Translations under genes and position numbers: made by a program | Virus record (IMG/VR): IMGVR_UViG_3300047552_000487 | Location: 1-35,604 of that record | Direction: 5' to 3' (one strand) | From: a virus | Length of the DNA stretch: 35,604 nt | Shown here: positions 1 to 30,029 of the stretch, piece by piece | Numbering within the stretch: position 1 is the stretch's first letter | How the letters are laid out: the number at the start of each line of letters is the position of its first letter | The notes under the pieces: generated by a model | Databases searched by the model: none | What the model saw: only the letters and a program-made list of their open reading frames with translations | What the model was told of the DNA's origin: nothing

Positions 1-2068
1 GCGTATTTGTCGCGCCGGCCACCGTCGGCGTATTCGTGGGGGTAGCGGTAGGCGTTTGCGTCGGCCCGCCCGGCGTGATGGTCGGCGTCGCGGTTGCAGC
101 TTGGACATAGATGATGTCCAGCGCCGGCCTGAAGCCGATGTTACCGTTCTCGCTCGCGCCGAAGTAGATTGTCTCGGTGAATGTGTCTGAGCCAATCAGG
201 ATCAGGCCGGCATTGGCAAGCGTCCCGGCGTACCAGTCGCCCACAAGCATCGTCATGTCAACGCCGTATGATAGGCCCTCGTCTTCGATGGTGATACCAG
301 CGTAAGGCGCTTCGGCGTTGTAGTCGCCACCGGCAATCCCCCAGGCCGTTGTACCGTCAACGGTTGACCACGTTACGCCGCTCTCCGTCCAGGAGTTGTT
401 ATTGAGCGCGTAGGCTTGCATCAGCATGGCCGCGCCGCCGCTATTGGTGATCGCGGTAAGTCTGAGTGTCGCGATTTTGATGGCTACGCCAGACGGCAGA
501 CTGGATATGTCGAAACGTAGGACGGCGCGCCGCGTGCCGGTGTTGTTGACCTGCAACTGCGTGCCTGCCCCATAGTTTGACGTAGTAGACGCGTAGCTGA
601 GTATAGAGTCGTCAACCGCACTTAACGTCAACAGTTGCTCGATGCCCGTAACTGTTGGCGTTGGCGTGCGCGTCGGCGTAGACGTTGCCGCCGCCGCAGT
701 CCATGTAGGCGTGCGCGTGCGCGTGGGCGTCCGTGTGTATGTCGGCGTTGACGTTGGGCCGCCAGGCGTCGGCGTGTTTGTCGGCGTCCATGTGGGATAG
801 ACTGTCCCGATGTTCGGCGTAGCAATAGCAAGATAGCGCGTGTAGTTCGCTTGCAATGTTGGCACAAACCACGATAGGTATGTCTGCGCGGCCGGCTGCA
901 TAGCGCCAGTCACGCAGGCCGCCGATGCGCCCACGCCGCCGGCCGCGTAGAATGAGTCGTAGGACGGCGCGGCGTCGTGCCCGTTCTCCCAGATGATACG
1001 GGTCTGCGTATCGTACACGTCAAACAGGTAGTTGTATCCGGTACAGCCGTCGCGTCCATCGCCCCAACAGTTCTTTTTGAGCCACAGCGCCTTACCGTAT
1101 TTGCCAAGTCCATAGATGATAGGCATTTGCGCTACGCCGCCGCGATTCGGGGATGTGAAGTTGCGGTCGTAGCAACCGGTCACGCCGTCCCAACTCAGCC
1201 CGCTTCCAAGTTGCAAGACGATGGGTGTGCTGATGAAATGGCGCTTGTACATATCAATGAGTTGCTTGACCTGTTCGGAGATGTAGTGGCATGACTTCTC
1301 AGTCCAAGCCCAACCGGTCGGATCGGTATAGGGCAGCTTAAGCGACGTGACGGTTTCGGTGATATACGTGCCGGCAATCCAGGCGCGTACATCGGCCTTG
1401 CCATTTGTGCAATCTGATGTTTGGCACCAGTTCAGCTCGCCATAGTCACCGATGCTGATGTGGATAGCCGCAACCCGATCATCGTTGTCATAGCGTTCGG
1501 CCATTTCCGCAACGAGGTCTTCCCAAAGGTCAATGAATAGCGGAGAGAAGATATTTGTCCGTCCGTTGGGATACTCCGTGCTATTCGGATAGCCGGCGGC
1601 GGCGTTCGCCGTCGTGAACCACCCCGGCACGACGCTTGCCATCGAGCCTTCGCTGTGCTCGACCTGTAGCCATATCTTGTTTGTGGTATCGGCCTTCGCG
1701 ACTTCAGAATCGAGCGAGTCCCAAACGTATGTCCCCTGCGTCGGTTCAATCTCAGACCAAAACACGTTAGGATAGCCCCATGTCGTGTTATACACTCCCG
1801 GCGAAAATGCTTGACATCGGCCCCAGAATCCCGGCGAAGTGTATTGCTTGAAAGCTACGCGCGTCACGGTTTCAGCCGGCAGTCTGAGCGGCCCGGCCAT
1901 CGGCTCACCAGTTGCAAGCGGATAGGCCGCCTCGCGCGTCGCGGCTGCGTCTTCAGGACTGAGCGCAGGCCGCGCGAAAGCCAGTATCAGCACGACGGCG
2001 AGCAGAAATAGCCCGCCGGCGATGTAGACTCCGTATCGTTGTATCAGGCGTCGGCAATCGTATGCCAT
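1..2068 (-). CDS. Secreted glycosidase-like protein with Thr-Pro linkers and a DNRLRE-type domain (C-terminus cut by window edge)
   Basis: I translated this frame by hand. It is open from ATG at 2068 to base 1, about 689 codons with no stop, so the gene continues beyond the left edge. A short basic N-terminus precedes a hydrophobic stretch at about residues 13-31 (signal peptide or anchor). Residues about 55-410 resemble a TIM-barrel glycosidase of the GH42/beta-galactosidase type, with WSEIEPTQGTYVW near the start. E211 (in GDYGELNW) and E361 (in IIWENG) are candidate catalytic acids. A TPT-rich linker (about 416-473) leads to a beta-rich domain (about 476-660) with the DNRLRE pattern RRAVLRFDISSLP and SWTESGVTW, then a second TPT linker. 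The start overlaps the upstream fibre gene by 25 bases. The signal sequence is odd for a virion protein; it may be exported to the host surface instead. The fold is inferred from sequence patterns, and the substrate is unknown. Confidence 0.75.
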   Translation of the reverse strand, partial: MAYDCRRLIQRYGVYIAGGLFLLAVVLILAFARPALSPEDAAATREAAYPLATGEPMAGPLRLPAETVTRVAFKQYTSPGFWGRCQAFSPGVYNTTWGYPNVFWSEIEPTQGTYVWDSLDSEVAKADTTNKIWLQVEHSEGSMASVVPGWFTTANAAAGYPNSTEYPNGRTNIFSPLFIDLWEDLVAEMAERYDNDDRVAAIHISIGDYGELNWCQTSDCTNGKADVRAWIAGTYITETVTSLKLPYTDPTGWAWTEKSCHYISEQVKQLIDMYKRHFISTPIVLQLGSGLSWDGVTGCYDRNFTSPNRGGVAQMPIIYGLGKYGKALWLKKNCWGDGRDGCTGYNYLFDVYDTQTRIIWENGHDAAPSYDSFYAAGGVGASAACVTGAMQPAAQTYLSWFVPTLQANYTRYLAIATPNIGTVYPTWTPTNTPTPGGPTSTPTYTRTPTRTRTPTWTAAAATSTPTRTPTPTVTGIEQLLTLSAVDDSILSYASTTSNYGAGTQLQVNNTGTRRAVLRFDISSLPSGVAIKIATLRLTAITNSGGAAMLMQAYALNNNSWTESGVTWSTVDGTTAWGIAGGDYNAEAPYAGITIEDEGLSYGVDMTMLVGDWYAGTLANAGLILIGSDTFTETIYFGASENGNIGFRPALDIIYVQAATATPTITPGGPTQTPTATPTNTPTVAGATNT

Positions 2069-3225
2069 GTAGTCCCATCCCATCGCTTCAGAACGTTATT
2101 GTCAATGTCATACCAAATGCCGCGTTCATCCGCGCCCCATGTCGGTTGTTCGGCCCAAGAGCGGTCTATGTTTCCGCCGGTGAAGTTCTTCCAGCGGATA
2201 GCGGCCCCGTACAAGTTTAACGTCGTGCTATCAATCCCCAAGACTAATATCGGGCCGAGACTATCATCAAACACGCCCAACTTTAGTTGTTGATTGGAGA
2301 AAATCTCAGGGTCATAAAAATCATTCTGACCCAAAAAAAGGTTATATGCTTCGCTTGCAACTTTTATTTCTATGCTGTGTCTTGTTATCTCTATCTCTTC
2401 ATCTGAGTCGCTCGATGATATGACCAGAGCGGGCAAATCAGCCAACCCTTCACTACCATTTACTACAAGGTCTAACCCCTGCCTTCTTGTATAAACGGTT
2501 ACTGTGTCATCAAACAAGACACCACCAGAATCGAGAGTAGAACGGAACGTGATGGCGGCCCTATCTGAATTAGACCCATCAGTAGGATTGGCAATTTCTA
2601 TACCGTTCCAATCCAATGATGTGTAGTTTTGTGGGCTCCCAACCTTACCAAGAACAATGTTTCCCGTTGAATTGTTTACCGTCCAGACCGAAGACCCATT
2701 TCTCCATCCGCCAATAGCCGATGACGTTGCGCCGAACCCGCTGAAGTTGACGCCCCATGTGCCCGTGCCAATCTGTATGCGGTCGCTGGTAAGAAGCACT
2801 CTCGATAGCGCCCCAACCAGTGCTATCTTCGTCACCTTGAGCGAGCCATCAATGACAACATCGCCATCAATGTGAACGTCGCCATCTGACATATAGACGC
2901 TAGGTTGTCCCGGAAGCCCCAACCTAAACGATTCGTCAATCCAAGACAAAGCGAACATCAGTTGCTTGGATGAGTTGTACATCTGCATCCCATAGACGAC
3001 ATCGCCAACCGAGATGTGCGCCCCGTCGCGGTCTCCACTGTGCAATGTTCCGCTTTGCAACTCACCAGCATTTACCGTGAGTGCATCAAGCGAACGCACA
3101 GAAATACGGTCGCCGGGGATTGTGCCGCGTCCAATCTCATAGCCCGGAAACGAACCGTCAGCCTGTGGTGTCCAGGGCAACATGCCAAGAACGTCAGCGC
3201 GTGTAACCATTCTGTTCTTTGGCAT
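2044..3225 (-). CDS. Tail fibre / receptor-binding-like protein
   Basis: This 393-residue protein is rich in short beta-strand repeats, Gly, Ser and Asn. Its C-terminus (ERGIWYDIDNNVLKRWDG) matches a pattern common in phage tail-fibre and tip proteins. The middle contains repeated hydrophobic-Asp/Gly segments such as DGDVHIDGDVVIDG, typical of fibrous beta-structure. It starts at ATG 3225, joined to the preceding stop as TAATG. It follows the tail hub and two other tail-tip candidates, the usual place for adhesion proteins. No enzymatic motif is visible. The assignment rests on composition, C-terminal pattern and position. Confidence 0.6.
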   Translation of the reverse strand: MPKNRMVTRADVLGMLPWTPQADGSFPGYEIGRGTIPGDRISVRSLDALTVNAGELQSGTLHSGDRDGAHISVGDVVYGMQMYNSSKQLMFALSWIDESFRLGLPGQPSVYMSDGDVHIDGDVVIDGSLKVTKIALVGALSRVLLTSDRIQIGTGTWGVNFSGFGATSSAIGGWRNGSSVWTVNNSTGNIVLGKVGSPQNYTSLDWNGIEIANPTDGSNSDRAAITFRSTLDSGGVLFDDTVTVYTRRQGLDLVVNGSEGLADLPALVISSSDSDEEIEITRHSIEIKVASEAYNLFLGQNDFYDPEIFSNQQLKLGVFDDSLGPILVLGIDSTTLNLYGAAIRWKNFTGGNIDRSWAEQPTWGADERGIWYDIDNNVLKRWDGTTWHTIADA

Positions 3226-3737: not shown

Positions 3738-4708
3738 AAGCCTTCACCCAAGTAGTAGACGCGAACATAGGCGTTGCCAGTATAATTAGGTGAGTTGGGA
3801 ATGTTGGTAGATGCAATCACCTGCACGCTCATCAACTCTCCCGGTGATGCTGCAACCGCGCTTATGTCAGCATACCCATCGAAATGTGCCATGTCAGTTT
3901 CGTCGTTGGGGTCTGTTTCAGGCGGGGTATTGTGCCCACCTTCGTACAAGCACTTCGTAGAGTCAATGCGCGTTCCGTTGACATAAACATAGGCTTCAAC
4001 TGCCCCTGGGTTGCTCTGGTCTTTGCCAAGCGCAATATGATAGTAAAGCGTTCCGGCATCGTTGCGAATCATGTACCCATCGAAAACAGTAACGGTATTG
4101 CCGCCGTTATTGGGAAAGTCTGATACTTCACCCATCTTCATAGCCTGATTGGGCGCAACGCTCACCAACTCCAAAGCCGTAACGTTATCCGCAAGGTGTT
4201 GCAGGTCAGTCGCTACGCTTGCGCTTTCGTTCTCAGTAAGAGCCGCCGCGTCGTTCAAGGCGACGTATCCGACTGGCGCGCTGATAATCTCGGATATTTC
4301 GTAGATAAATCCGTTGTTTGCTGCGGTGTTTGTGACACGGATAAGTACAAGTTCTTCGTCAACCGGATGTGTTGGTGCGGTCGGTTTGTCCACGAGCGAT
4401 ACGGCTCCACGTTGTCTTCCCGCTCCAGTAAGCGTTACAATGGCAGTTGTCATGTCCTTGTAATAGATTTTGAGTGTACCACCACCTGCATTGTCAACAT
4501 CGTAGTAAAGGTATTCGTTTGCAGCGAGAGTAGCGTTGTGATAATGCACGATATAGAAATCACGCTCGGAGCCAGTTCCGCATTCTTCTCTTGCATGTGG
4601 AACGCGCAGCGACAGGGAACGGTTGTACAACTCAGCAACCGCCCCCGTGAGTGTATTAACCTGCCTTGCGCTCAGGTATTGACCATCAATGAATGTTGGG
4701 ATATACAT
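3734..4708 (-). CDS. Putative tail-associated structural protein
   Basis: The protein has 324 residues. The N-terminus (IPTFIDGQYLSARQVNTL) resembles the start of phage tail-tip or fibre proteins that dock to a baseplate. The centre has an Ala-rich helical segment around NDAAALTENESASVATDL. The C-terminal third is a beta-rich domain with VEAYVYVNGTRI and VRVYYLGEG, which could be a carbohydrate-binding or jelly-roll fold. It is coupled to the hub gene at 4708 and to the next gene by ATGA. No catalytic motif is seen. Confidence 0.55.
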   Translation of the reverse strand: MYIPTFIDGQYLSARQVNTLTGAVAELYNRSLSLRVPHAREECGTGSERDFYIVHYHNATLAANEYLYYDVDNAGGGTLKIYYKDMTTAIVTLTGAGRQRGAVSLVDKPTAPTHPVDEELVLIRVTNTAANNGFIYEISEIISAPVGYVALNDAAALTENESASVATDLQHLADNVTALELVSVAPNQAMKMGEVSDFPNNGGNTVTVFDGYMIRNDAGTLYYHIALGKDQSNPGAVEAYVYVNGTRIDSTKCLYEGGHNTPPETDPNDETDMAHFDGYADISAVAASPGELMSVQVIASTNIPNSPNYTGNAYVRVYYLGEGL

Positions 4709-6738
4709 TAGTAGAAAGCCCTGCCCTTGCCAGTCACGTTGCCAAGAACGGACGTGCCAAGCAAGAAGTAATCCGAGTAAGCATACAGGTCATCAGCCGG
4801 GAGTAGGTCTAGCGTCATAGTGAACCCGCGTTCGCCATAGTTCCAGTCTAACCTCTGTATATAATGCGAAGCGGAAAGCCCGCCGGGTGCAGTAGTAGTA
4901 ATTCTATCCCCAACTTCCAGCCAGGGCATCGCTTTGACCACGTGAACCTTCTTGGTCAGGCGGTTGGCTGCGTATCGGTCAAGCAGGAACCTTCCAAGAG
5001 CCTCGGCGTGCTCCCTTGTCTGTACGTTGCGGTTGTCAATCGAAATCATGCGCCAGCCGGCTCTAGGCGCACTGTCAGCCGGGTCTTCAATCACAACACC
5101 GGCATCAGTCCGATAGAGGGTTACTTTTTGTTCCTTGCCCGTGATAACCGGACGGCCCCTCAGTTCCAACTTGCGAAGATACAAGTCAGTACCAAGAAGA
5201 TTGATAACCTTGACATAAGCCTGTTGCGCCCACACTTGACGTTCAGCCCCATCATAGAGCGAAACCGTTACATCTGTTGATTCGTTCTTGGCGGCTCCCC
5301 CTGAAGTGGTGAACACGAAGTCCTTGAAGTAATCGTCATTTACCGGGTCAACCACGCTGTATGCGGGATTGTCGAAAGACGCCTTGATGATTTTCGTAGC
5401 GCCAGCAGGTAGCCTGTATTGCTCCGCAGATGACCAGATGATTTGTTCTTGTGCAATCCGAAGCGGGTAGTACCAGACCTCTACTGCGTTCTTGTACTCT
5501 TTGCGTGAAGGCGAAACGCCGCCGCTTAGTTCGGTGTAATCGTCAACTGTAAATATTGGTTCAATGTTGACAATCGTGAGCGCGTGCGTTGCGTTCTCGA
5601 ATACGAGTTTGCTGGAAACAGACGCCGCCCCAGATGGTGAGTAGTACAACCTACCGCCCTCGGCCTCTGCAATCTTAACCATCTCAGACCACAGCGGTTC
5701 ATCGTCCAGCCAAGCAAATGGGATAACGTAGGTTCCCTTGTCCATCACGAGTGTACTTGCCGCGATGGTAGGTCTCTGAGTTGCTGGAAGTGTGTTGACG
5801 TACTGCTCGATGATTTGGTCAGTCCGCATGTTCTGAAGTAAGGTTGTCTTGGGCCGATACTCCAACATCCTCTGTGACTTATCTCTTGCGGTGATAGTCA
5901 CTTCTCTTCCGACGGCATCAATGGCGTAGTCCTCGATATGACCTTTCATCACGTAGACGCCTTCGGAATAGACCAGTGTAACATCATCGTAATAGGCAAC
6001 ACCGCCGTTAGCAACCGGACAGCCAAGAACCAATCTAACAGATGTACAATCGGTTGGTGCGATGAATTGTACGTTTAACGGGGCGTAGTTCGTTCCGGTA
6101 ACGCCCGTGTTCGTTACGGCCACAATATCTGTCGAGTGCGTAGCGTCAACAATTTGGTACTTTCCACAGTTACCAAGACCATCTCCACGCGTGTAGAACG
6201 TCAGCGAGTAGAACGTTCCGGGAACAACCGTGAAGGCTTGGTGCAAGGTGGTATTGCTCGTAGCGCCTGCGGTTAGTTTTGCCGCCGCAGACCCGCCATG
6301 CACGCTAGTCCCTTCAACCGCAATCGCCCCGCTTCCAACCGTGTCAACCCACGTCCCGAAGTCACCGCCCGTAGATGTCTCGAAGTCCCCATTGACGATA
6401 AGTGACGGGCCGGTGTAGTATCCGAGAAGGACGCGAAACGCAAGCCCCAACCAGGAACGCCCACCGATATAACTGTAAAGCGGGCCGGCCGCGTACCAGG
6501 GCGTGAACCTCTCAGTCTGATTGTTCAGTACAATCGTTGCTTCATCCGCGATGCCGTTGCCAATCGCGCTGAGTCCCGCGTCGGTATTCACGGCTTCAAG
6601 TTTGCCGTTTGCGCTTTGGACGTAAGCAGATTCATCTACCCAATTTGTGCCGTCCCATTGGACAAACACCCGGCATAGATGTCCACGCCCAGAAGCCCTG
6701 CTTGCTGCAAGTACAGTTCCAGAGATGTCTTGCGTCAT
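4708..6738 (-). CDS. Tail hub / tail-associated protein with an inserted carbohydrate-binding-like domain
   Basis: I start the 676-residue protein at ATG 6738, not further upstream. This ATG overlaps the preceding TGA as ATGA and has a GAGGAAG ribosome binding site in front. Residues about 1-110 and 258-676 look like a phage tail hub of the gp27/Tal type (DEATIVLNNQTERFTPWY, IDAVGREVTITARDKS, WLEVGDRITTT). Between them, residues about 112-257 form a separate module, LIVNGDFETSTGG through YYDDVTLVYSEG, with the pattern of CBM4/9-type jelly rolls (NGDFE start, F.V.PG..Y.L.F, YYDDV end). It would sit at the tail tip and contact host glycans. The hub role is inferred from position after the tape measure and from this core. 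Confidence 0.65.
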   Translation of the reverse strand: MTQDISGTVLAASRASGRGHLCRVFVQWDGTNWVDESAYVQSANGKLEAVNTDAGLSAIGNGIADEATIVLNNQTERFTPWYAAGPLYSYIGGRSWLGLAFRVLLGYYTGPSLIVNGDFETSTGGDFGTWVDTVGSGAIAVEGTSVHGGSAAAKLTAGATSNTTLHQAFTVVPGTFYSLTFYTRGDGLGNCGKYQIVDATHSTDIVAVTNTGVTGTNYAPLNVQFIAPTDCTSVRLVLGCPVANGGVAYYDDVTLVYSEGVYVMKGHIEDYAIDAVGREVTITARDKSQRMLEYRPKTTLLQNMRTDQIIEQYVNTLPATQRPTIAASTLVMDKGTYVIPFAWLDDEPLWSEMVKIAEAEGGRLYYSPSGAASVSSKLVFENATHALTIVNIEPIFTVDDYTELSGGVSPSRKEYKNAVEVWYYPLRIAQEQIIWSSAEQYRLPAGATKIIKASFDNPAYSVVDPVNDDYFKDFVFTTSGGAAKNESTDVTVSLYDGAERQVWAQQAYVKVINLLGTDLYLRKLELRGRPVITGKEQKVTLYRTDAGVVIEDPADSAPRAGWRMISIDNRNVQTREHAEALGRFLLDRYAANRLTKKVHVVKAMPWLEVGDRITTTAPGGLSASHYIQRLDWNYGERGFTMTLDLLPADDLYAYSDYFLLGTSVLGNVTGKGRAFY

Positions 6739-7103
6739 GCCGGCGCTTCCTCTTTCAGTGTCACAGAAACATCGTAGAAGAATCCAGCCTGGTAGTAAGC
6801 AGGTTTCACCGCGCACGGGCCTGTACAGCGAACGTGCGTATGTTCCCCGGCTACATCAGACGACTCAAACTCCACCGCAGCAAGGACTCCCGCTGCCCAC
6901 GCCGCTTGAATAGTTGCTACTTCAGCCGCAGTCAACCCGCGCCAACGCACCGTCCACACCTTCCTGTATCCAGTCGTTGTGACGGTGTTGAAGATAAGTT
7001 TACCAGAGCCGGCCTCGACGAAGTTTCCTACCATCTCGTAGGAAAGTGAACACTCGAATGGGTTAGCCAACGTAGAGGTGTTCAGTTTGGTTACTACTGT
7101 CAT
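6735..7103 (-). CDS. Putative minor tail protein
   Basis: This 122-residue beta-rich protein contains KVWTVRWRGLTAAEVATIQAAW. That resembles the strand-plus-helix pattern of small siphophage minor tail proteins in which a W.(V/L).(F/W) strand precedes a helix. It lies between the tape measure and the hub, where distal-tail or minor tail proteins are found. Start and stop both overlap neighbours (ATGA on each side). It is too short for a full Dit protein. The exact tail role is uncertain. Confidence 0.55.
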   Translation of the reverse strand: MTVVTKLNTSTLANPFECSLSYEMVGNFVEAGSGKLIFNTVTTTGYRKVWTVRWRGLTAAEVATIQAAWAAGVLAAVEFESSDVAGEHTHVRCTGPCAVKPAYYQAGFFYDVSVTLKEEAPA

Positions 7104-10730: not shown

Positions 10731-10823
10731 TTACTGTTGTTCCAACCATTTCTCTAGGGCGGTTAGCATCCCTTTCGCCAGTCGAATAAGCATGGCGATC
10801 AGTTCCTTTGTCGCCTTTGTCAT
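10731..10823 (-). CDS. Small helical protein, 30 aa
   Basis: ATG at 10823 overlaps the TGA of the upstream glycosyltransferase gene as ATGA, the coupling used all along this operon. The product (MTKATKELIAMLIRLAKG then MLTALEKWLEQQ) is a basic amphipathic helix with no recognised family. The following 83 bases to the tail tube gene contain no other gene. Being very short, it could be a chance frame. The exact coupling is the main support. Confidence 0.45.
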   Translation of the reverse strand: MTKATKELIAMLIRLAKGMLTALEKWLEQQ

Positions 10824-11863
10824 TTCAACACTTCCAACATCCCCCTAACGCGTGAGTCGAATGTGTGACCAGATACCTTCTTGGGAAGTTCTTTCGCAAT
10901 CTCCAATCGCTCGTCCTCATGTTCAAGGTAATAAAAGATTGTCTCTCTGAGTTCTTCGGGTGTCTTGAATGTTGGAACCAAGTCGCCAAACACATCTTGT
11001 ATCTCAGGCCGGTAGTCACTTATGAAAAACGTTCCGCAAGCCGCAAGCTCGTAGCAACGTGGGTTTATCGAATAGGCTTGGCTGATGTGTTCGGCGTCAT
11101 CTCCGAATCCCTTAGACGTGCGGTGAAGATTGATGCCGATTTTAGAGTTTCTATACAGGTCGGCGGTGACTTCGTTCTTGACAATGTTGGGCCTGAGATA
11201 CTTCTTACATGGGCTGTTAGGCATCATCAGTTCCCATGTCCCATACAACCCGAAGTCAATCCCCGTCCAATCAGTTGCCTCAAACAGATTCACACGCTCA
11301 ATCCAACCTGTACCGACAAATACAACGTCATGTGATGCTACGCCAGGGTTTACGGCCCCGCCGGGAAAATGCAACTCCGGGTCGTAGGCGTGTTGATAGT
11401 AATAGACATTCTCGATACCCGCCTTCTTGAAAGATTCAACGCTAGACTTATCATTCACCCAACACAGGTCTACCAACCGCGCCCATCTGATTTGATCGTC
11501 GTCATCATTCGGAGATTCGGTGAATAGAATCGCCGTCTTAACATGCGCTCGTTTCAACATGATTAGGACTTCAGCGGAAACGTACATCCCTGAAGTGAAG
11601 ATTACCCAATCAACGTCATTGAACAACGCCCGTTCGATGGAACCAACACCTGCATGGAACAACCATTCTGCGTTTGTCGCTCTGGGCGTAGTACGTTTGC
11701 TATTCTCCCAAAGCCAGTCCATGTACTGTCTGGATTTCTCGATGTGTCCAGTTAGCGAATACTTGAAAACTGTTTGTCCAGCCCGTTCAAGGGCCGAATG
11801 AACTCCCCGGTAAACATCGTGTGTTGACCATCCAGCGCCAGAGTCACTTAGTAGTATTTTCAT
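10820..11863 (-). CDS. Glycosyltransferase, CgeB/GT4-like
   Basis: The 347-residue protein starts at ATG 11863, which overlaps the preceding TGA as ATGA and begins MKILLSDSGAGW, a typical Rossmann first strand; an upstream in-frame start is less likely. The two-domain layout fits GT-B enzymes. The second half contains DVVFVGTGWIERVNLF and the signature INPRCYELAACGTFFISDY followed by an aspartate/glutamate-rich helix, as in CgeB-like and GT1/GT4 transferases, where this region binds the sugar nucleotide. Donor and acceptor are unknown. It sits with a methyltransferase between the tail terminator and tail tube, so glycosylation of virion proteins is a reasonable guess, as is modification of host glycans. 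Confidence 0.8.
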   Translation of the reverse strand: MKILLSDSGAGWSTHDVYRGVHSALERAGQTVFKYSLTGHIEKSRQYMDWLWENSKRTTPRATNAEWLFHAGVGSIERALFNDVDWVIFTSGMYVSAEVLIMLKRAHVKTAILFTESPNDDDDQIRWARLVDLCWVNDKSSVESFKKAGIENVYYYQHAYDPELHFPGGAVNPGVASHDVVFVGTGWIERVNLFEATDWTGIDFGLYGTWELMMPNSPCKKYLRPNIVKNEVTADLYRNSKIGINLHRTSKGFGDDAEHISQAYSINPRCYELAACGTFFISDYRPEIQDVFGDLVPTFKTPEELRETIFYYLEHEDERLEIAKELPKKVSGHTFDSRVRGMLEVLK

Positions 11864-12408
11864 TCTGGCTTGTACCCATCGAATCCGCAGTTGAACCAAG
11901 CGCCAGTAACAATGCGGGTATCCCTGTATCCATCAATCGGAGTCAGGTTCACAAACCCGAACTCTTCCATCGCCCGCTTCAATGTGAATGGCTCGTATGA
12001 CCACTTGTGCGGAGAGTCAATGTTTGACCACGCTGAGTTGTATAGGAAAACGTTGCAGATGTGGTCTAGGTCTTTGATAGACCACCAGACACCCGCCGGA
12101 ACCTGAAACTCATCGTTAGTTTCATTCATCCAGCGCAGCATCACTTCCCGGATATTGGGAACAACAATACCAAGTTTACCGCCTGGAACTAAGGCACGGT
12201 AACATTCCCGCAAGAACTCAGCGGCTTCTGATGGGTCTAGGTGTTCCAAGAAGTGTCCGGCGTAGATTTCGTCTACCGTGTTGTCTTTGTACGGAATCGG
12301 AGGAACTTCAGTGAAAACGTCGGCAAAAGAATCGGGGTCACGGTCGTAATTCACGTATCCCTTCAAAGGATAACGTCCGCAACCGCAGTTCAAGCGTAGT
12401 TTATCCAA
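11860..12408 (-). CDS. SAM-dependent methyltransferase (class I, type 11-like)
   Basis: This 182-residue protein has the SAM-binding motif I LNCGCGRYPLKGYVNYDRD near its N-terminus. The Asp after the second strand fits ribose binding. Next come IPYKDNTVDEIYAGHFLEHL and then LVPGGKLGIVVPN, the standard type-11 methyltransferase order. The start is TTG at 12408, overlapping the tail terminator stop by 8 bases, with GGAGG about 12 bases upstream. It is paired with the glycosyltransferase gene by ATGA. A sugar or glycan methylation step is plausible from the pairing but not shown by the sequence. Confidence 0.85.
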   Translation of the reverse strand: MDKLRLNCGCGRYPLKGYVNYDRDPDSFADVFTEVPPIPYKDNTVDEIYAGHFLEHLDPSEAAEFLRECYRALVPGGKLGIVVPNIREVMLRWMNETNDEFQVPAGVWWSIKDLDHICNVFLYNSAWSNIDSPHKWSYEPFTLKRAMEEFGFVNLTPIDGYRDTRIVTGAWFNCGFDGYKPE

Positions 12409-12829
12409 GATACTCTAAAACCTCCACAGTTACTTCAATCCCAAAATAATCAACGCCGCCATAGGTGAAGTCGCCAATCCTTGAGTAGTTCACAGCCTTC
12501 GCGGATACACAACTTCCAGTCAAGTCATTGTCCGTTCGCAACGCCGCAAGGAAGCGGTCTAGCAAATCAACCGTGCCATCAATGTTCTTGGAGAGAATCC
12601 CCTGCGCGGCCGCTGAGTAAGCGAATTGAACCCTTACTCGGTGTTTCACTTCCCATGTATCGCTGAAGTCCAAGAGCGTGATAGACCCGCCATCAGGGTA
12701 GTACATCATCGCTGGAAGCATGACCGGCTGTAACGACGATGGCATGGCGTCCACATCAAACGACTTCTTGATGCCCGTGATGTTGGCTCCAATCGCCGCA
12801 AGTTTGGTGATGTTGGCTGAAAGGGTCAT
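12401..12829 (-). CDS. Tail terminator / tail completion protein
   Basis: The product has 142 residues. The central segment WEVKHRVRVQFAYSAAAQG and the ending GVDYFGIEVTVEVLEYLG fit the alpha/beta fold of siphophage tail terminators (gpU-like), which cap the tube at the correct length. It follows the head-tail connector gene with ATGA overlap and precedes the tail tube, although a methyltransferase/glycosyltransferase pair is inserted in between. Assignment is mostly from length, fold pattern and gene order. Confidence 0.6.
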   Translation of the reverse strand: MTLSANITKLAAIGANITGIKKSFDVDAMPSSLQPVMLPAMMYYPDGGSITLLDFSDTWEVKHRVRVQFAYSAAAQGILSKNIDGTVDLLDRFLAALRTDNDLTGSCVSAKAVNYSRIGDFTYGGVDYFGIEVTVEVLEYLG

Positions 12830-13647
12830 CGGCCAATCTCCATGCGCTGATAAGGTTTCAGCATGGCGTCAACGTCAGTCGGGATACTTACCGGAATGAC
12901 AATCATGCCAAGTTCACCCTGAGCCGTCCTATCAAACGGGGCTTCTCTCTGCCGGTAGTACCATGTACTCAAACGAACACAGGCGTGTTCAATGTCCAGC
13001 GGCGGGCGATAGATACTGATTGCCACACCGTTCAAGTGGGCCGCAGCGGTTGTGCCATTAAGCCCTCTTGTAACAGTCAGGTTCACGGTAGAGATGGCTG
13101 TGATGAGCATGAGTTCATCTTCGACTTTGATGGTCTGCATCACAGAGAAGTTCGTTGCGCTCGTTACCGTGAGAGTTGTCCCGCTCGCTGAAATCTGTGT
13201 TGCGTTCTGGACGGTCTGCCCGCTTGCCTCATAAGCCTCAGCGTAATTGTCATGCCAACCCCAGATACCAGCGATAGAGACACTTTCCTGGTCAGTATCC
13301 GTCCACTCGAAATAATATCCAGAACCTTTTTTTAGTTCAATCCACTGGTAGGCTTTAGCGTTGGAGGGTTTCAGATAGTATTCAGTAGAGGGGATAACCG
13401 TGCCGTCAACAGTAAGTGAAGTGCATGAAAGCAAGTCTGCCCCGAACGACATCCACTGGACGTTATCAGGATGGTCAAACTTCTTCGTTGCAGTTGTGGG
13501 GTAGAAGCTGCGCCGACAGATACGTTCTATCGCACGGCTGGCGCGCTTAATCACGTCTACCAAGAACGAATCATCGGCGGCTACCGTAATGCCGGTAACG
13601 GAGTTATACGCCTGTAGTTGCGCCAGCGTGCAGTAATAAGATGCCAT
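12826..13647 (-). CDS. Head-tail connector (gp6-like adaptor) with an inserted domain
   Basis: The protein has 273 residues. The N-terminus (CTLAQLQAYNSVTG, then DDSFLVDVIKRASRAIERICRRSFYP) is the hallmark of HK97 gp6-like adaptors that sit on the portal. The C-terminus (DIEHACVRLSTWYYRQREAP) is the matching helical end. Between them, about residues 145-210 hold an extra beta-rich module (SASGTTLTVTSATNFS, LTVTRGLNGTTAA). That pattern is common in phage structural proteins, and it makes the protein longer than a minimal adaptor. A GAGGGG ribosome binding site precedes ATG 13647. Confidence 0.75.
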   Translation of the reverse strand: MASYYCTLAQLQAYNSVTGITVAADDSFLVDVIKRASRAIERICRRSFYPTTATKKFDHPDNVQWMSFGADLLSCTSLTVDGTVIPSTEYYLKPSNAKAYQWIELKKGSGYYFEWTDTDQESVSIAGIWGWHDNYAEAYEASGQTVQNATQISASGTTLTVTSATNFSVMQTIKVEDELMLITAISTVNLTVTRGLNGTTAAAHLNGVAISIYRPPLDIEHACVRLSTWYYRQREAPFDRTAQGELGMIVIPVSIPTDVDAMLKPYQRMEIGR

Positions 13648-13656
13648 TCTACCCCT

Positions 13657-14694
13657 CTATAGCGCCAATACGTAGTTGCTGTACACCGTGCCTAGCGCAG
13701 TTAGGTCATACGGCGTGTCTTTGGAAACAATGTCGTTATAGTCCGTAACCCAATCGGTCACGGCAAACACGTACATCGAGTAGCCCATATTCCGGCCTTC
13801 CAGCAGGTCGCAGATGTCCGTAATCTGCTGTCCCTCGTTGGCCGATGTTTCGACTTCCCCAAACTCACCAACCCACACGCACGCGCCGGCGGCCTGATGC
13901 GGGTCTAGGCGCACTTCCATCCAATCCTCAAGTTGTGTCTTGGCAGTAGCCAGACTACCCGCCTCGTATGACGCGCCCCACGGGAAGTTCTCAGCGCGAT
14001 AGATATGTTCCGAGTAGATGACCTTATTCGCAGCCAGCCACGCCTTGTCCGTCCAGCCGATGTTCGGCCACACTTCCACGATGTAGAGCAGTTCGGGCCG
14101 ATGCCCCTGCAAGTCAAGGATGGTGGACTTCAGTAGCGTTTCCATCGCCGCGCTGCGCGTCGCGTCGCTCTGCCCGTTGGCCGCGATCAGAAACGGCTCA
14201 TTCATCATGTCGCAGCCGATGACCGTGCTGTTGTAGCGGTATCGCTCGATGAGCGTGTGCCACATCGCAATCCACTCGGCTTGCAGGGCGGCGTCTGTGG
14301 TGAAGGCTTGCGGCGCGCTAGGCGTCGTTGTGTCCCAAGTGTGCTGGTCTAGGATGACTTTAAGTCCAGCCTCGCCCGCCCACTCGATAGCGCGGTCAAG
14401 CGCCATCAGCCCGGTTCTGTCTTGTCCAGCCGATGGGACTGGCGTGAGGATGTCAACCTTGTGCAAAGCCAACCGTACCGAGTCGAAGCCATAGTCCTTG
14501 ATGGCCTGAAACTTGGCGCGCTCGTTGTTCAGGCGCACGAAGGTGTTGACCCCGTGCCACCTGATTTCATTTCCCAGGTGGTCGTAAATCTTCGTGCCCG
14601 TGACGTGGTAGAAGCCCGTGCGCCCGCTGGCTGTGCGAGAGCCGGCCCCGCGTCCCGATGATGCTGTTCTGCCCGTTGCGGCTTCGCGTGTCAT
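13657..14694 (-). CDS. Glycoside hydrolase family 5 (endoglucanase-like) enzyme
   Basis: The 345-residue protein starts at ATG 14694, which overlaps the upstream TGA as ATGA and has AGGAG about 8 bases before it; longer starts are unlikely. After a short basic, Gly/Ser-rich leader (about 30 residues, no signal peptide) comes a full GH5 barrel. It begins IYDHLGNEIRWHGVN and includes RLALHKVD and LDQHTW. The acid/base motif MMNEP has E166, His230 lies in SEHIY, and the nucleophile motif is VGEFGE (E277). All key GH5 residues are present, so it should be active on a beta-glucan or beta-mannan type glycan. It lies among head and connector genes and lacks an export signal, so a virion-bound depolymerase or an enzyme released at lysis are both possible. 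Confidence 0.85.
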   Translation of the reverse strand: MTREAATGRTASSGRGAGSRTASGRTGFYHVTGTKIYDHLGNEIRWHGVNTFVRLNNERAKFQAIKDYGFDSVRLALHKVDILTPVPSAGQDRTGLMALDRAIEWAGEAGLKVILDQHTWDTTTPSAPQAFTTDAALQAEWIAMWHTLIERYRYNSTVIGCDMMNEPFLIAANGQSDATRSAAMETLLKSTILDLQGHRPELLYIVEVWPNIGWTDKAWLAANKVIYSEHIYRAENFPWGASYEAGSLATAKTQLEDWMEVRLDPHQAAGACVWVGEFGEVETSANEGQQITDICDLLEGRNMGYSMYVFAVTDWVTDYNDIVSKDTPYDLTALGTVYSNYVLAL

Positions 14695-15341
14695 GCGCCA
14701 ACTCCTAGCAGCGTGGCGAACTTTCGCCCGCCCGTCGCCGTCGCTTGCTTGAACGTGGCAATCAACCCGGCGGCTCTCTGCGAACCCGTCCACGAGCAAG
14801 TGCTTTCTTGCGCGCCCGTGCTACTCACAACAAGATAGCCTTCCCACATCACCCCGCCGTTAAGGTCTAGCAGGGTGTATGAGTTCGACCAACTTGGGGC
14901 GGTCTGCGCGGTCAGGACGCGCACGACTGCAAAGCACAGTTCATTGGCGACGGTGGTCGCTGCCGTCGTACCAGATGACCGGCTCGTTACGCTGGACGTG
15001 GTATCCGCGACGTATGCCGTCTTGTCCAGCGGCGTCGCGTCCGTGCCGCTGAATTCGACAGCGGCCATGTTCACAGACGAGGCCCCGGTGATGGTGGCAA
15101 TCAACTCAGTCGGCTCCGCTGCGCCGGCCACGCGGTAGCAGATAGACACGAAACCCGAAGAACCCGCGGTAGTCCACACCGCTTCCGCGAAGTTTGTCGG
15201 CGGTGTGAAGCCCGTGTGAGCAGACGGGCAACACACCGCAGCGACGATAAGGTTTCCGACAGCGGCAGTAGCATCGAGTATCACATGCACATGGTCTGCC
15301 GCAGCCGCAGCCGCTTTGTGCTGGACTTTGGTGATTGCCAT
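14691..15341 (-). CDS. Putative virion surface protein, beta-sandwich
   Basis: This 216-residue protein is rich in Ala, Thr, Ser and Val. The alternating strand pattern (GNLIVAAVCCPSAH, SICYRVAGAAEPTEL, MAAVEFSGTD, ELCFAVVRVL) suggests a lectin-like or concanavalin-like beta-sandwich. Its stop overlaps the GH5 start, so the two are translationally coupled. Between a decoration-like protein and the GH5 enzyme, it could carry or present the enzyme on the capsid. That is inference; no diagnostic motif is seen. Confidence 0.5.
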   Translation of the reverse strand: MAITKVQHKAAAAAADHVHVILDATAAVGNLIVAAVCCPSAHTGFTPPTNFAEAVWTTAGSSGFVSICYRVAGAAEPTELIATITGASSVNMAAVEFSGTDATPLDKTAYVADTTSSVTSRSSGTTAATTVANELCFAVVRVLTAQTAPSWSNSYTLLDLNGGVMWEGYLVVSSTGAQESTCSWTGSQRAAGLIATFKQATATGGRKFATLLGVGA

Positions 15342-15342
15342 G

Positions 15343-16269
15343 TTACGCCGCCGTGAAGCCTACCGCAGAAACGTAGACCTCCGCAGAAGTCGTTCCGCAA
15401 ATGGCATTGAGCGCCTTGTTGGCTGTCGTCGAGGGCGGCGTCGGGAACGTGATTGCGAACCCGCCACCGGCGGGGGCTGCGTAGCCCTTGCACAAGACGA
15501 TGGGCGTATCCGCGCCGTCCTGGATTGTGACCAGCGTGCCAACGGTCGCGTCTGAGTTGGTGACGACAAGCGATGTCAGATAAATCTTGACGCCCGCACC
15601 CTGGGCCGCGATGACCGCCGTCGCGTTGGTATCCGCAATCGCAGCCGTGTGGCCCGTGACGCACGCGCTATTGACCGCGCCGGCGACCGTCTTGACCGAA
15701 TCGTTTGTCGAGTCAAGTTTCGTGCCAAGCGAGACGAGCAAGTTCCCCGATGCATCAACGTCAGCCGCTTTGCCAGAAGGCCCAACCAGTTGGCCCGGCA
15801 GCACCAGCGTACCAGTCGTGCGCGCCGTATTCGCAGCGTTCATATCCGCGATAGCGCCGGTTGCGATAGCTCCAGAAGCAACGCCGCCGCTTGCAACGGT
15901 GGCGCGCACCAGGAAACTCCCTGCCGTGATTGCCAGTTTGACTAGTCCGCGTAGGTATTGCTGCAACGTGCCGGCCGCGTCGGTGATGACCGCCGCTCCA
16001 GTGGTAGCGCCCTGTGCCACGTCTGCGCCATCGGCAACGGTAACAGCACCGCCTCCAGATGTACCCGTCACCCAGAGCTTGCCGTCAGCATCGAAGATTG
16101 GCGCGGTGTAATCCCCATCGGAACCAGCCAATGACGTGGCTGTATCCTTGCGAACGCCGAGGGATACAATGCCGAAGTCACCAGAAGCGTGGGCGGCGTC
16201 TTCGGCCTTTGCGAGTTGAGTTTCAGCGCCTAACGCACCGCTAACCCACAGAGAAACTTGTTCAGCCAT
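15343..16269 (-). CDS. Phage structural protein, decoration/fibre-like
   Basis: This 308-residue protein is very rich in Ala, Thr, Gly and Val and poor in aromatics. The N-terminal segment SLGVRKDTATSLAGSDGD followed by YTAPIFDADGKLWV is a recurring pattern in phage structural proteins of unknown exact role. The C-terminal part (KIYLTSLVVTNSDATVG, then PIVLCKGYAAPAGGG) looks like a beta-jelly-roll. ATG at 16269 has AAGGAG upstream and overlaps the previous gene by 8 bases. Position downstream of the capsid gene suggests head decoration or head fibres. Confidence 0.6.
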   Translation of the reverse strand: MAEQVSLWVSGALGAETQLAKAEDAAHASGDFGIVSLGVRKDTATSLAGSDGDYTAPIFDADGKLWVTGTSGGGAVTVADGADVAQGATTGAAVITDAAGTLQQYLRGLVKLAITAGSFLVRATVASGGVASGAIATGAIADMNAANTARTTGTLVLPGQLVGPSGKAADVDASGNLLVSLGTKLDSTNDSVKTVAGAVNSACVTGHTAAIADTNATAVIAAQGAGVKIYLTSLVVTNSDATVGTLVTIQDGADTPIVLCKGYAAPAGGGFAITFPTPPSTTANKALNAICGTTSAEVYVSAVGFTAA

Positions 16270-16508: not shown

Positions 16509-16652
16509 CTAGTGTTCTTCTTTTTGCAGAGCATCCCTAAGTTCTGTCAGGGCCATAATCCCGCCCTGAAGCCGAAGAATCCCATTCTGCAATTCCACGA
16601 TGGCTTTCTCGTAGTTCAGCAGTTTTTCCTCGACCAGTTCCAGATTATTCAC
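16509..16652 (-). CDS. Small helical protein, 47 aa
   Basis: The proposed start is GTG at 16652, overlapping the TAA of the upstream gene; no good ribosome binding site is visible, so initiation would be by coupling. The product is a regular amphipathic helix (NNLELVEEKLLNYEKAIVEL, then GIMALTELRDALQKEEH), likely coiled coil. It fills the gap between two head genes and ends in TAG just before a hairpin. No family recognised. Confidence 0.5.
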   Translation of the reverse strand: MNNLELVEEKLLNYEKAIVELQNGILRLQGGIMALTELRDALQKEEH

Positions 16653-17475
16653 CGGTTACGCTCGCGGCGGCCACAATCGGGATGTAGTAAGCCGTTCCAG
16701 CCACGTCAATCTTGATGAGTCCGTCCGCTGTCCCCGCAACGCCAGAAGTTCCGATTGCTGTCATTGAGCCAATCTTGACGCCACACTCGTAAGCCGTTCC
16801 AGTAGCGAACTTCACAAACTTGTCCGCAGCGCCAATGTACAACGCTTGGGGCCACTGATACGTAGAACCCTGAGCCGCCTTGCCGATGTAAACACCGGAA
16901 ATAGAGCCGGTCTCTGTGATCGCTGCGTTGAACACACACTCAGCCCGTACCGCGGCCAAAGCCGTCGAAACCGTGATGGCATTGGAACCAGCGTCCACAC
17001 AAGAGCGAGTGGCCTGTGCCGAACCGATAGTTGCAGCAGCCGCAATCTCAAGATAGTCATACGCGCCAGACATCGGAGATGTCGTGGTGGGAGCAGTAGT
17101 GGCAATCTTAAGCTGGTTCTGGCAACCTGAAATCGTCACGTCCGCGCCAGCCGCGTGCAACAGCAGGAAGCGGTTCACTGTCGTGCGGACATTGTTTCCA
17201 GTTACGATAGCCGCGTTGCCATCGTCAGCGTAGAAGCTGACAGCCTTCGTGCGACTAGCCGACAACACGGTTCCGCCAACCGCAGCGGAAGCGAACGTGC
17301 CAACATTCAGTGTGGCCCCCGTTCCAGGAGCAGTAACCGCGCCCGTAGACGCGTCCAAGCTCCATTTCAACGTGTCACCCGTATCCGAGTACGCCTTGAT
17401 GTCGCCGCCATTGTAAATCACCAGGGCGTCGTCACCGTCCGTACTCAGAATATTCGTTCTATCATTCTGAGGCAT
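16645..17475 (-). CDS. Putative head-associated structural protein
   Basis: The 276-residue protein starts at ATG 17475, since GGGAG is well spaced from it but too close to the ATG at 17481. It begins PQNDRTNILSTDGDDALVIY and is rich in Ala, Gly, Thr and Val with repeated strands (GGTVLSASRTKAVSFYADD, ALYIGAADKFVKFATG). Composition is like phage decoration or fibre proteins. It directly follows the major capsid gene across a hairpin. The specific role is unknown. Confidence 0.55.
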   Translation of the reverse strand: MPQNDRTNILSTDGDDALVIYNGGDIKAYSDTGDTLKWSLDASTGAVTAPGTGATLNVGTFASAAVGGTVLSASRTKAVSFYADDGNAAIVTGNNVRTTVNRFLLLHAAGADVTISGCQNQLKIATTAPTTTSPMSGAYDYLEIAAAATIGSAQATRSCVDAGSNAITVSTALAAVRAECVFNAAITETGSISGVYIGKAAQGSTYQWPQALYIGAADKFVKFATGTAYECGVKIGSMTAIGTSGVAGTADGLIKIDVAGTAYYIPIVAAASVTGE

Positions 17476-17488
17476 TTTCATTCTCCCT

Positions 17489-17530: not shown

Positions 17531-19717
17531 TTACGCTACGGTAACATTATACGTGTACCCAATCGCGTCATACGTGGACAGGTCGAAGTCCAGCATCATG
17601 TGAGCCACAATCTCGTAGCTGTCCGAGCGGGCGATGCGCTGCGTCTCAACCTTCATGCGGCGGCCAAAGCCAACCACAGCCTGGTCGGGGCGAACACACA
17701 GGAACGAGCCGAGTGTGTTCGAGCCGGTCGTGTTGTTGATGTAGCCGCTGGAGTCGGTCAGGCCGTACTTGTCCGAGACAATCACGGGGCTGCCGAAGAT
17801 ACGTTCCAGAACACCACTCTGGAAGGTGAAGCCGGGGCCGAACTTCTCAAGGGTCAAAGCCTCGCCCAAGCTCTGCATCTTCCAGTAGATACCGGGGTCA
17901 ATCACCCAGACCAACTTCGACGGGTCAAGAGCGTAGGAACCGTTTGTACCCATCAGTTTCTTGGTCAGCAGGAAATCTTCCGCAGTCAGGGTAGAGCCAG
18001 AGCGAGCGTTCGCAGCCGAGCCGTCCAAGAGAGCATGAGCGCGCAAGCCCTTCGCCAGAAGCAGATGCCAACTGGTGCTGATAGAGCCGTCGCCATAGTC
18101 CGAGACGTTCGAGCTTGTCGTGACCGTATCGCCAGAGATGAGGATTTCGTCAATCACTTCAGCGCCGGAGATAGCCATTTCGCTTTGCAGGAAGGGCAGC
18201 ATCGGAACCAAGCTCTGCTCGTCCATTTCACCCGTCCACATAGCGATAGCGGACAGTTTCTTGGGCGTCAAGGTGATGTTCGATGTGCTGGGTTTGCTCA
18301 CGCGGGCGGTGATGAAGGCATTGTCATAAGCACTCTCAGCCGTGTCGTCTGTCTGAGCCGTCTTGTACCAAGTCACAGAACCAGTCTGAATCGGGATGAC
18401 CAGACTTTCGCCCTGCACTTCCAACTGGCGGAACAGGCCCAAGACTTTCGCCTGATTGCGAATCAGAGGAATCAACTCACGGCTGTAGTAAACCGGAATC
18501 CACTCGTCGCCGTAGGTCGAAACGTCCGAACCCATCAACTCATCGGCCTTCGTCGCCAGAGTCCGTTCAAGATAAGCGTCGTGCTTGTTGCCGAAGGTTA
18601 GGGGAGCGCCCATGCCCTTCAGCGCGGCTCCGGTAGGCATGTATTCCTTCGTCCGCAGAGCGCCGTTCTTGAAGGACTTGCTCACCAAGTCAATCAGGGT
18701 GCGACTGTAAGCCACCGAGGGCTGAATACCGATGCTCTTCATCACCATGTGGCCGAGAGCCAACTGAGCCGGGTCAACGTGGTCATAAGCGCCGGCCACT
18801 TCGATGCGGTCTTCCTGAGCGCCAAAGGCAATCTTGCGATTAACCTGCTTCTTGGCAATCTCTTCCTCGACCTTCTTGGCTACGGCATCGCTAAAAGCCT
18901 TCTCAGCCAAAGCCTTATCAGAGGCTTCCTTTTCCTTCGCGGCAATGGCATCAGCAACAGCCTTGCCAATAAGTTCGTTCATGTTCTCTTCCATTTTCTT
19001 AACTCCATCAGACTTGTTTTTAGTATCTTCCAAAGCCTTGCTCTCACTTGGGACATCTTCGCTTTTGGCCTCTATGTCCAAGTCTTCAAGCCCAATGGCT
19101 TTCACAAAACCAGGCATCATCTCTTTCACGATTTGGAACCTTGCCATCGGATTGGCCGAGAAGGGGGCGACTGAAATCTCCACCAGGGGCCATTCAGTAA
19201 TCCGATTGCCCATCTTCCGAACCAGAGAAGCCGCCGCTCCAACGCTGAAGTTCTGCGCGCCCTGTTTAACCAGGTTCCACGCGGCCTCAGCGTACCTATC
19301 GCCCTTGTAAATCTGCGCTCTAACCCACAAACCCATTTGGGTTACTTTCGCTTCCAGCACCCGGCCAATAGCGTTGAGTTTGATGTCTTCGTGCTGGCCG
19401 TGCGAGAACAAGAGTACGGGCCGGTTCATGTAGCGGTTCAACGAGTTACTGAAAGCTTTCGGGTCGAAAGCCTCACCTTCATCGTCCACGTCCCAGGTTG
19501 CGGCGTAGCCCTCGATGATGCGTTCCTCGTCGTTGACAGACTTGATTAGCAGCCCTTTTTCTTGGCTTTTTTCTTCTGACTCCATCAACGCGCCGATTTG
19601 AGCTTGCGCTTCATCCGCTGAGTCGTGGCAATGGATTGCTTCTCCCATTGGCATGTCATCGTCGCCTTTCTTGTACACGCAAAAGCGACCATCTTCTTCC
19701 TTGATTGTGTAAGGCAT
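17531..19717 (-). CDS. Fused prohead protease and HK97-type major capsid protein
   Basis: The 728-residue protein starts at ATG 19717 with AGGAAG six bases upstream. Residues about 1-45 form a small domain (YTIKEEDGRFCVYKKG, HCHDSADEAQAQIGAL) often seen before phage proteases. Residues about 50-200 are an HK97-family (S78) protease: IIEGYAATWDVDDEGE, His106 in LLFSHGQH and Ser158 in QNFSVGAA. A Lys/Glu/Ala-rich helical segment (about 245-300) resembles a scaffold/delta domain. The rest is an HK97-fold capsid protein (WIPVYYSRELIPLIRNQAKV, TPKKLSAIAMWTGEM, GSPVIVSDKYG). Protease and capsid are usually separate genes. An internal start near 18994 could also make the capsid part alone. Confidence 0.85.
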   Translation of the reverse strand: MPYTIKEEDGRFCVYKKGDDDMPMGEAIHCHDSADEAQAQIGALMESEEKSQEKGLLIKSVNDEERIIEGYAATWDVDDEGEAFDPKAFSNSLNRYMNRPVLLFSHGQHEDIKLNAIGRVLEAKVTQMGLWVRAQIYKGDRYAEAAWNLVKQGAQNFSVGAAASLVRKMGNRITEWPLVEISVAPFSANPMARFQIVKEMMPGFVKAIGLEDLDIEAKSEDVPSESKALEDTKNKSDGVKKMEENMNELIGKAVADAIAAKEKEASDKALAEKAFSDAVAKKVEEEIAKKQVNRKIAFGAQEDRIEVAGAYDHVDPAQLALGHMVMKSIGIQPSVAYSRTLIDLVSKSFKNGALRTKEYMPTGAALKGMGAPLTFGNKHDAYLERTLATKADELMGSDVSTYGDEWIPVYYSRELIPLIRNQAKVLGLFRQLEVQGESLVIPIQTGSVTWYKTAQTDDTAESAYDNAFITARVSKPSTSNITLTPKKLSAIAMWTGEMDEQSLVPMLPFLQSEMAISGAEVIDEILISGDTVTTSSNVSDYGDGSISTSWHLLLAKGLRAHALLDGSAANARSGSTLTAEDFLLTKKLMGTNGSYALDPSKLVWVIDPGIYWKMQSLGEALTLEKFGPGFTFQSGVLERIFGSPVIVSDKYGLTDSSGYINNTTGSNTLGSFLCVRPDQAVVGFGRRMKVETQRIARSDSYEIVAHMMLDFDLSTYDAIGYTYNVTVA
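18992..19006 (-). promoter_or_regulatory. Possible internal translation start for the capsid part
   Basis: Inside the fusion, GGAG (19003-19006) sits 8 bases before an in-frame ATG at 18994 (MEENMNELIGKAV). Starting there would give a 487-residue delta-domain plus capsid protein, the normal size for an HK97 capsid precursor. Such motifs also arise by chance, so this is a candidate only. Confidence 0.45.
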
Positions 19718-19727
19718 AAGTAACTTC

Positions 19728-20165
19728 CTATATGTGCTTTGCTTCAATACCGCCGAAGATGCCACGAATGGGAGAACCGTATTCCTGGCTCATTGTTCCG
19801 AGGATGAACCCTCTGCGACTCTTGGCGATGTCTTGAATCGTAGTCCAGCGGCCCGCATGATAGCGCCTGTTCTGGTAAACCCTGTCTTGCACCCACTTGG
19901 CATAGGGGGTATCCCTGTTGAAGAGGATGCCTTTGACCTCGTTGCCGTGGTCAACAATCTCCCATCCCCAATTATGTCCTAGCCGGTAGGTTCTAACGTA
20001 CTTCTGGCCCTCTCTAGGCGGAGGATATATGGTAACATCTTCTAGCAGGGTGGTTAGCACTCGGTTCATGCCAGCTATGCTTCTCTGACGAACGATACCA
20101 GAAGCGTTGCCCCACTTCTTGATAACGTTTTCCAGGCCCTTAAGTTGGATGTCTACTGCAATCAT
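19728..20165 (-). CDS. HK97 gp10-like head/neck protein
   Basis: The 145-residue protein starts at ATG 20165 (MIAVDIQLKG), overlapping the upstream TGA as ATGA, with AAGGA about 7 bases before. The order is a short strand (IQLKGLENVIKKW), a helical region, then PYAKWVQDRVYQNRRYHAGRW. That order, with Y..WVQ, matches small gp10/neck-type proteins of siphophages. It lies between the gpF-like gene and the capsid rather than after the connector, a somewhat unusual position. Role in head closure is inferred. Confidence 0.6.
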   Translation of the reverse strand: MIAVDIQLKGLENVIKKWGNASGIVRQRSIAGMNRVLTTLLEDVTIYPPPREGQKYVRTYRLGHNWGWEIVDHGNEVKGILFNRDTPYAKWVQDRVYQNRRYHAGRWTTIQDIAKSRRGFILGTMSQEYGSPIRGIFGGIEAKHI

Positions 20166-29994: not shown

Positions 29995-30015
29995 GCCGGC
30001 GGGCGATACACCGGC
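29995..30015 (+). other. Intergenic hairpin before the clamp gene
   Basis: GCCGG (29995-29999) pairs with CCGGC (30011-30015), just ahead of the GAGAGGAA ribosome binding site. Confidence 0.4.
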
Positions 30016-30029
30016 GAGAGGAACAACAA

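Follow-up and report, generated by a model that had tools for sequence, protein, structure and literature searches.

A predicted GH5 beta-glycanase gene in the capsid-connector interval of a siphovirus-like phage genome

The stretch of viral DNA analysed here (the window, 35,604 nucleotides, positions 1 to 35,604 of IMG/VR record IMGVR_UViG_3300047552_000487) carries a gene for a GH5 enzyme between its capsid and head-tail connector genes. Is such an enzyme a part of the phage particle, or is it cargo that acts elsewhere? The initial annotation, made from the sequence, had described an intact endoglucanase-like protein inside a head-tail cassette and had offered both answers, a capsid- or neck-bound depolymerase and a cargo enzyme for the breakdown of host or biofilm. 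We examined the gene, the predicted structure of its product and the corresponding interval in related viral contigs.

The GH5 gene within the late gene run

The gene lies in a minus-strand run of late genes in which TerS, TerL, portal, a Mu-F-like protein and a fused prohead protease/capsid protein are followed by an interval of five ORFs that ends in GH5; connector, neck protein, methyltransferase, glycosyltransferase, tail tube, tape measure and tail proteins come after it (Table 1). TerS, portal and the neck protein were named by homology to genes of the contigs together with position and gene order. The tape measure protein, with no sheath gene identified, suggests a siphovirus-like phage. 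One of the tail proteins (4708-6816, minus strand) has a CBM4/9-like insert at residues 139-262 (PF02018, E 3.6e-5, just under cut-off), and a sliding-clamp-like protein with the central and C-terminal domains of DNA polymerase III beta is encoded at 30000-30755 on the plus strand.

Table 1 Features at and around the GH5 gene, in positions of the window
Feature	Position	Strand	Evidence or remark
Fused prohead protease and HK97-type major capsid protein, upstream border of the slot	17531..19765	-	PF04586 E 7.4e-12; PF05065 E 5.6e-4, below cut-off
278-aa ORF after the capsid gene	16645..17481	-	No family match (Pfam, PHROG, further profile search)
308-aa ORF in the capsid-connector slot	15343..16269	-	tblastn, partial match to Manatee Spring contigs: MW202647 E 2e-7, MW202554 E 2e-11
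216-aa ORF overlapping the GH5 start	14691..15341	-	Family-less
Shine-Dalgarno-like TAGGAG ahead of the GH5 ATG	14702..14707	-	Read from the sequence
GH5 beta-glycanase gene	13657..14694	-	345 aa + stop; PF00150, PDB, AF2, Foldseek/VIA-align, residue check
Low-complexity N-terminal arm of the GH5 protein, ~25 residues, TASSGRGAGSRTASGR	14620..14694	-	Predicted disordered; AF2 pLDDT, hydropathy
Head-tail connector, downstream border of the slot	12826..13647	-	phrog_442 E 5.5e-17; PF05135 E 3e-4
SAM-dependent methyltransferase, second accessory site (neck/tail tube)	11860..12408	-	PF08241 E 1.4e-7; phrog_6636 E 5.4e-11
Glycosyltransferase, second accessory site (neck/tail tube)	10820..11899	-	PF13524 E 1.2e-20

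The first ORF after the capsid gene is, by its position, a possible decoration protein. At the other end of the interval, the annotated placement of GH5 beside a head-tail connector is borne out by the profile matches of the latter, but the label of virion surface candidate given to the preceding 216-aa ORF finds no footing: searches of Pfam, PHROG, NCBIfam and phage, plasmid and IMG/VR sequences returned no relative, and its AF2 model, made without an alignment, was unusable (pLDDT 33). This ORF shares four bases (ATGA) with the GH5 ORF, an overlap that may reflect translational coupling. The TAGGAG motif together with the ATG supports the start codon of the GH5 ORF. A programmed frameshift joining the two ORFs was also considered; the sole XXXYYYZ heptamer lies ~460 bases upstream of the overlap, and given this distance and the gene's own Shine-Dalgarno sequence, a frameshift fusion was rejected. 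Searches for a promoter or terminator belonging to the GH5 gene gave matches no more than expected by chance.

The 345-aa product is a member of GH5, far above chance on its profile match: Pfam PF00150 was matched at E 2.6e-21 (76.8 bits against a cut-off of 23.5) over profile positions 3-266 of 272, which is the whole barrel. A phmmer search of the PDB returned the endoglucanases CelE2 (8fc0, E 2e-13) and E1 (1ece, E 6.6e-13), and the description of an intact endoglucanase-like enzyme in an open reading frame thus stands. So does the reported absence of a signal peptide, since hydropathy revealed no hydrophobic N-terminal stretch. Close relatives were not found when IMG/VR was searched with the protein as a single sequence; plasmid and phage matches were below 35% identity throughout, and a genome search gave one weak, unconfirmed match in Ereboglobus. 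The GC3 of the gene is 0.725 against 0.567 expected (z 5.6), but because the capsid gene likewise has a raised GC3, codon usage is only suggestive of a foreign origin.

Predicted fold and active site

An AlphaFold (AF2) model built from 29 related viral sequences had a mean pLDDT of 78 and a pTM of 0.83. Residues 1-23 appear disordered (pLDDT ~40), and from about residue 26 the chain is predicted to form a (beta/alpha)8 barrel. Foldseek placed CelE2 first (E 5.9e-20), and VIA-align gave Z scores of 30-31 over 302-307 residues to three endo-beta-1,4-glucanases, with mannanases next at Z ~26. The lower scores of the mannanases favour a glucanase, and going by the model the protein is most likely an endo-beta-1,4-glucanase.

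The predicted acid/base, E166, lies in the motif MMNEP and the predicted nucleophile, E277, in VGEFGE, while H230 and Y232 belong to SEHIY. R74, H118, N165, E166, H230 and Y232 are invariant in all 29 aligned rows and E277 is kept in 27 of them. The three motifs are as annotated, but the statement that all catalytic motifs are visible was slightly overstated, as position 308, at the end of strand 8, is Tyr in the window's protein and Trp in 27 of the 28 other rows (the remaining row has a gap). A Trp after strand 8 is usual in GH5 and is not family-defining. Trp315 lies near Tyr308 and might take the place of the usual Trp, and the exchange could alter activity or specificity. Taking residues and model together, the protein is probably a catalytically active retaining beta-glycanase.

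The capsid-connector interval in related contigs

To see what else occupies this position, 80 IMG/VR contigs were fetched with an alignment of four connectors, and the length of the slot was measured in the 68 that have both a major capsid protein and a connector. The slot is shorter than 700 bp in 41 (~270-340 bp in 38 of these), 0.7-1.1 kb in four and longer than 1.3 kb in 23. Most slots are either empty, at ~300 bp, or span 1.3-4 kb; that of the window is ~3.9 kb. The relatives are distant, with connectors roughly 25-37% identical, some contigs are near-duplicates of one another, and those with an empty slot belong to another lineage, in which protease and capsid protein are encoded by separate genes. 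The longer slots hold a sulfotransferase (L020), GT4 and GT2 glycosyltransferases with a cytidylyltransferase (L094, L100, L104 and their near-copies), a glycosyltransferase with an NAD-dependent epimerase (L098), a GT4-GT2 fusion (L105) or a hexapeptide acyltransferase with other genes (L131), and in L089 a methyltransferase adjoins the connector. Beta-helix proteins occur in L073 and, by appearance only, in L077; the beta-rich slot proteins of L071, L073 and L077 may be virion decorations, so that structural occupants occur as well. A recurrent slot family of 320-365 aa, which starts LAIVGS..P..R and is without a Pfam match, was seen at L010:12388-13347, L072:4451-5548 and L076:3918-4982.

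None of 65 related records searched contains GH5, the search of the newly fetched relatives having taken in 39 of 79 contigs. GH5 is thus absent from these records where the flanking genes are kept, and other non-structural genes are found at the site, although the relatives are distant. The pattern suggests that the capsid-connector interval is a variable insertion hotspot for cargo, including non-structural glycan enzymes. Because such enzymes fill the slot in relatives, the position of GH5 is poor evidence for a role in capsid or neck, and the step from position to a capsid- or neck-bound enzyme was a weak one, the more so as the protein lacks the extra regions of most phage GH5 proteins.

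Related contigs also carry genes similar to the methyltransferase and glycosyltransferase at the corresponding region (10820-12408, minus strand, in the window). At the edge of the window, an ORF open at its 3' end (2-2083, minus strand) encodes at least 694 aa with an N-terminal membrane segment, Thr/Pro-rich linkers, a CBM96 match (E 1.7e-17) and a GH42-like region (PF02449, E 1.4e-4, just over cut-off), and is a candidate membrane-anchored GH42-like/CBM96 glycan-active protein. A relative 54-56% identical is present in L151. Thr/Pro-rich linkers are frequent in Chloroflexota, and those of this ORF are a weak hint of a Chloroflexota host. In a further contig that shares the GH42-like protein, the late region includes glycosyltransferase, methyltransferase and radical-SAM-like genes, named by sequence appearance and, for the methyltransferase, also by a weak match to that of the window.

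Possible roles, and comparison with known GH5 enzymes

The reading to which we give slightly better than even weight is that the GH5 gene is an accessory, moron-like cargo gene whose product is a soluble beta-glycanase, made late and released at lysis. As an insert between capsid and connector genes in a siphovirus-like phage, it would be co-expressed with the late genes, and its product, lacking an export signal, would build up in the cytosol until lysis of the cell sets it free. Outside, the enzyme would cut a polysaccharide of beta-glucan type in the surroundings of the burst cell, be it exopolysaccharide, sheath, biofilm or plant polymer, which may help progeny to spread or to reach new hosts; its activity, its substrate, its release at lysis and the benefit to the phage are what we infer here. 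The single-domain, anchorless architecture counts for cargo, the better half of the annotation's guess, the capsid- or neck-bound half being weak. A glycan theme in the window seems strengthened by the CBM4/9-like tail insert and the GH42-like/CBM96 protein.

Foremost among the alternatives, though unlikely in our estimate, is a virion-bound depolymerase, in which GH5 would be held on the head or neck by its 25-residue arm or by the 216-aa protein and would digest exopolysaccharide as the particle nears the cell. The gene does lie inside the head-connector run with an ATGA coupling to the 216-aa ORF, yet this slot carries non-structural enzymes in relatives and no programmed frameshift site lies near the overlap. 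Its N-terminal arm is oddly composed; an extra domain is lacking, whereas most phage GH5 domains sit within proteins of ~500-1000 residues. A precedent is offered by Erwinia phage S6, for which cellulose is the first receptor and whose gp095 has a C-terminal GH5 domain with cellulase activity verified experimentally on a carboxylated cellulose substrate (PMC9544554). In Klebsiella phage LASTA and Erwinia phage PEp14, too, the GH5 gene comes after the capsid region and ahead of tail-fibre or depolymerase genes. We think it doubtful that the head or neck bears a complete single-domain GH5 glucanase, attached via a short disordered arm or the coupled 216-aa protein, that would serve the particle as a polysaccharide cutter other than a tail spike.

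We consider it improbable that GH5 is an auxiliary metabolic gene which lets the infected host or its neighbours break down plant or microbial polysaccharide from the environment and so feeds the infection, as has been proposed for soil-virus glycoside hydrolases. A peat-virus GH5 has been expressed and assayed as an endomannanase (PMC6786970), but without a signal peptide the enzyme would not reach an extracellular polymer before lysis, and its gene is placed with the late structural genes, not with the early ones. There is only a slender chance that the protein works in the cytosol together with the methyltransferase and glycosyltransferase and trims or transfers sugars of a surface glycan, on the virion or the host: both genes are found 1.2-2.8 kb downstream, oriented like GH5, and relatives pack glycan-building genes into this late region, but the closest GH5 matches are endo-acting polymer hydrolases and no searched relative pairs the glycan-building set with GH5. 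A catalytically impaired GH5 serving as a sugar-binding module, which the Trp to Tyr change at position 308 might indicate, is very improbable, as the two catalytic glutamates are retained along with five other conserved residues, the change is from one aromatic to another and Trp315 is nearby.

Free of the particle, the enzyme would be a plain example of a biofilm enzyme released by lysis; carried on the particle, it would be a head- or neck-borne depolymerase. The gene adds to the known phage-carried beta-glycanases an anchorless form, encoded by a siphovirus-like genome, and indicates that the capsid-connector interval is a place where glycan-active cargo recurs.

Among characterised enzymes, CelE2 (8fc0), Acidothermus E1 (1ece) and the Pyrococcus horikoshii EG (3qho) share the TIM barrel, the catalytic pair and the active-site residues with the window's protein. 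The latter is 20-24% identical to them over the structural alignment and differs in having several shorter loops, Tyr at the Trp position, no signal peptide and a phage gene as its origin. Phages and viruses have already yielded GH5 enzymes whose activity was demonstrated, and a phage GH5 is less unusual than had been claimed, given S6 gp095 with its Klebsiella, Pseudomonas and Serratia relatives (PMC9544554) and the permafrost viral endomannanase (PMC6786970). That soil-virus enzyme is likewise a GH5 encoded on a viral contig among phage genes.

In annotated phage records, weak GH5 matches were found in Erwinia, Klebsiella, Serratia and Pseudomonas phages, whose proteins also gave the best viral fold matches. 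Phage GH5 proteins related to S6 gp095 occur in phiEaP8, PEp14, Klebsiella LASTA, SJM3 and SopranoGao, Pseudomonas Skulduggery and Serratia Parlo. Of the 32 viral GH5 loci found, the majority code for larger proteins (~500-1000 aa) in which extra regions precede or follow the barrel, and in several a Calx-beta-type partner protein follows, like the S6 gp094 arrangement. The window's GH5 has neither the extra regions nor the partner: at 345 aa, with the barrel starting near residue 26, it is not of gp095-type architecture, in which GH5 forms the C-terminal part of a larger protein, and its neighbours, the 216-aa ORF and the connector, have no hydrolase family match (Pfam, PHROG) that would supply a second, GH48-type enzyme. 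In S6 gp095, the GH5 domain is part of a large multidomain protein with a GH48 protein beside it, whereas here a lone GH5 domain occupies the capsid-connector slot.
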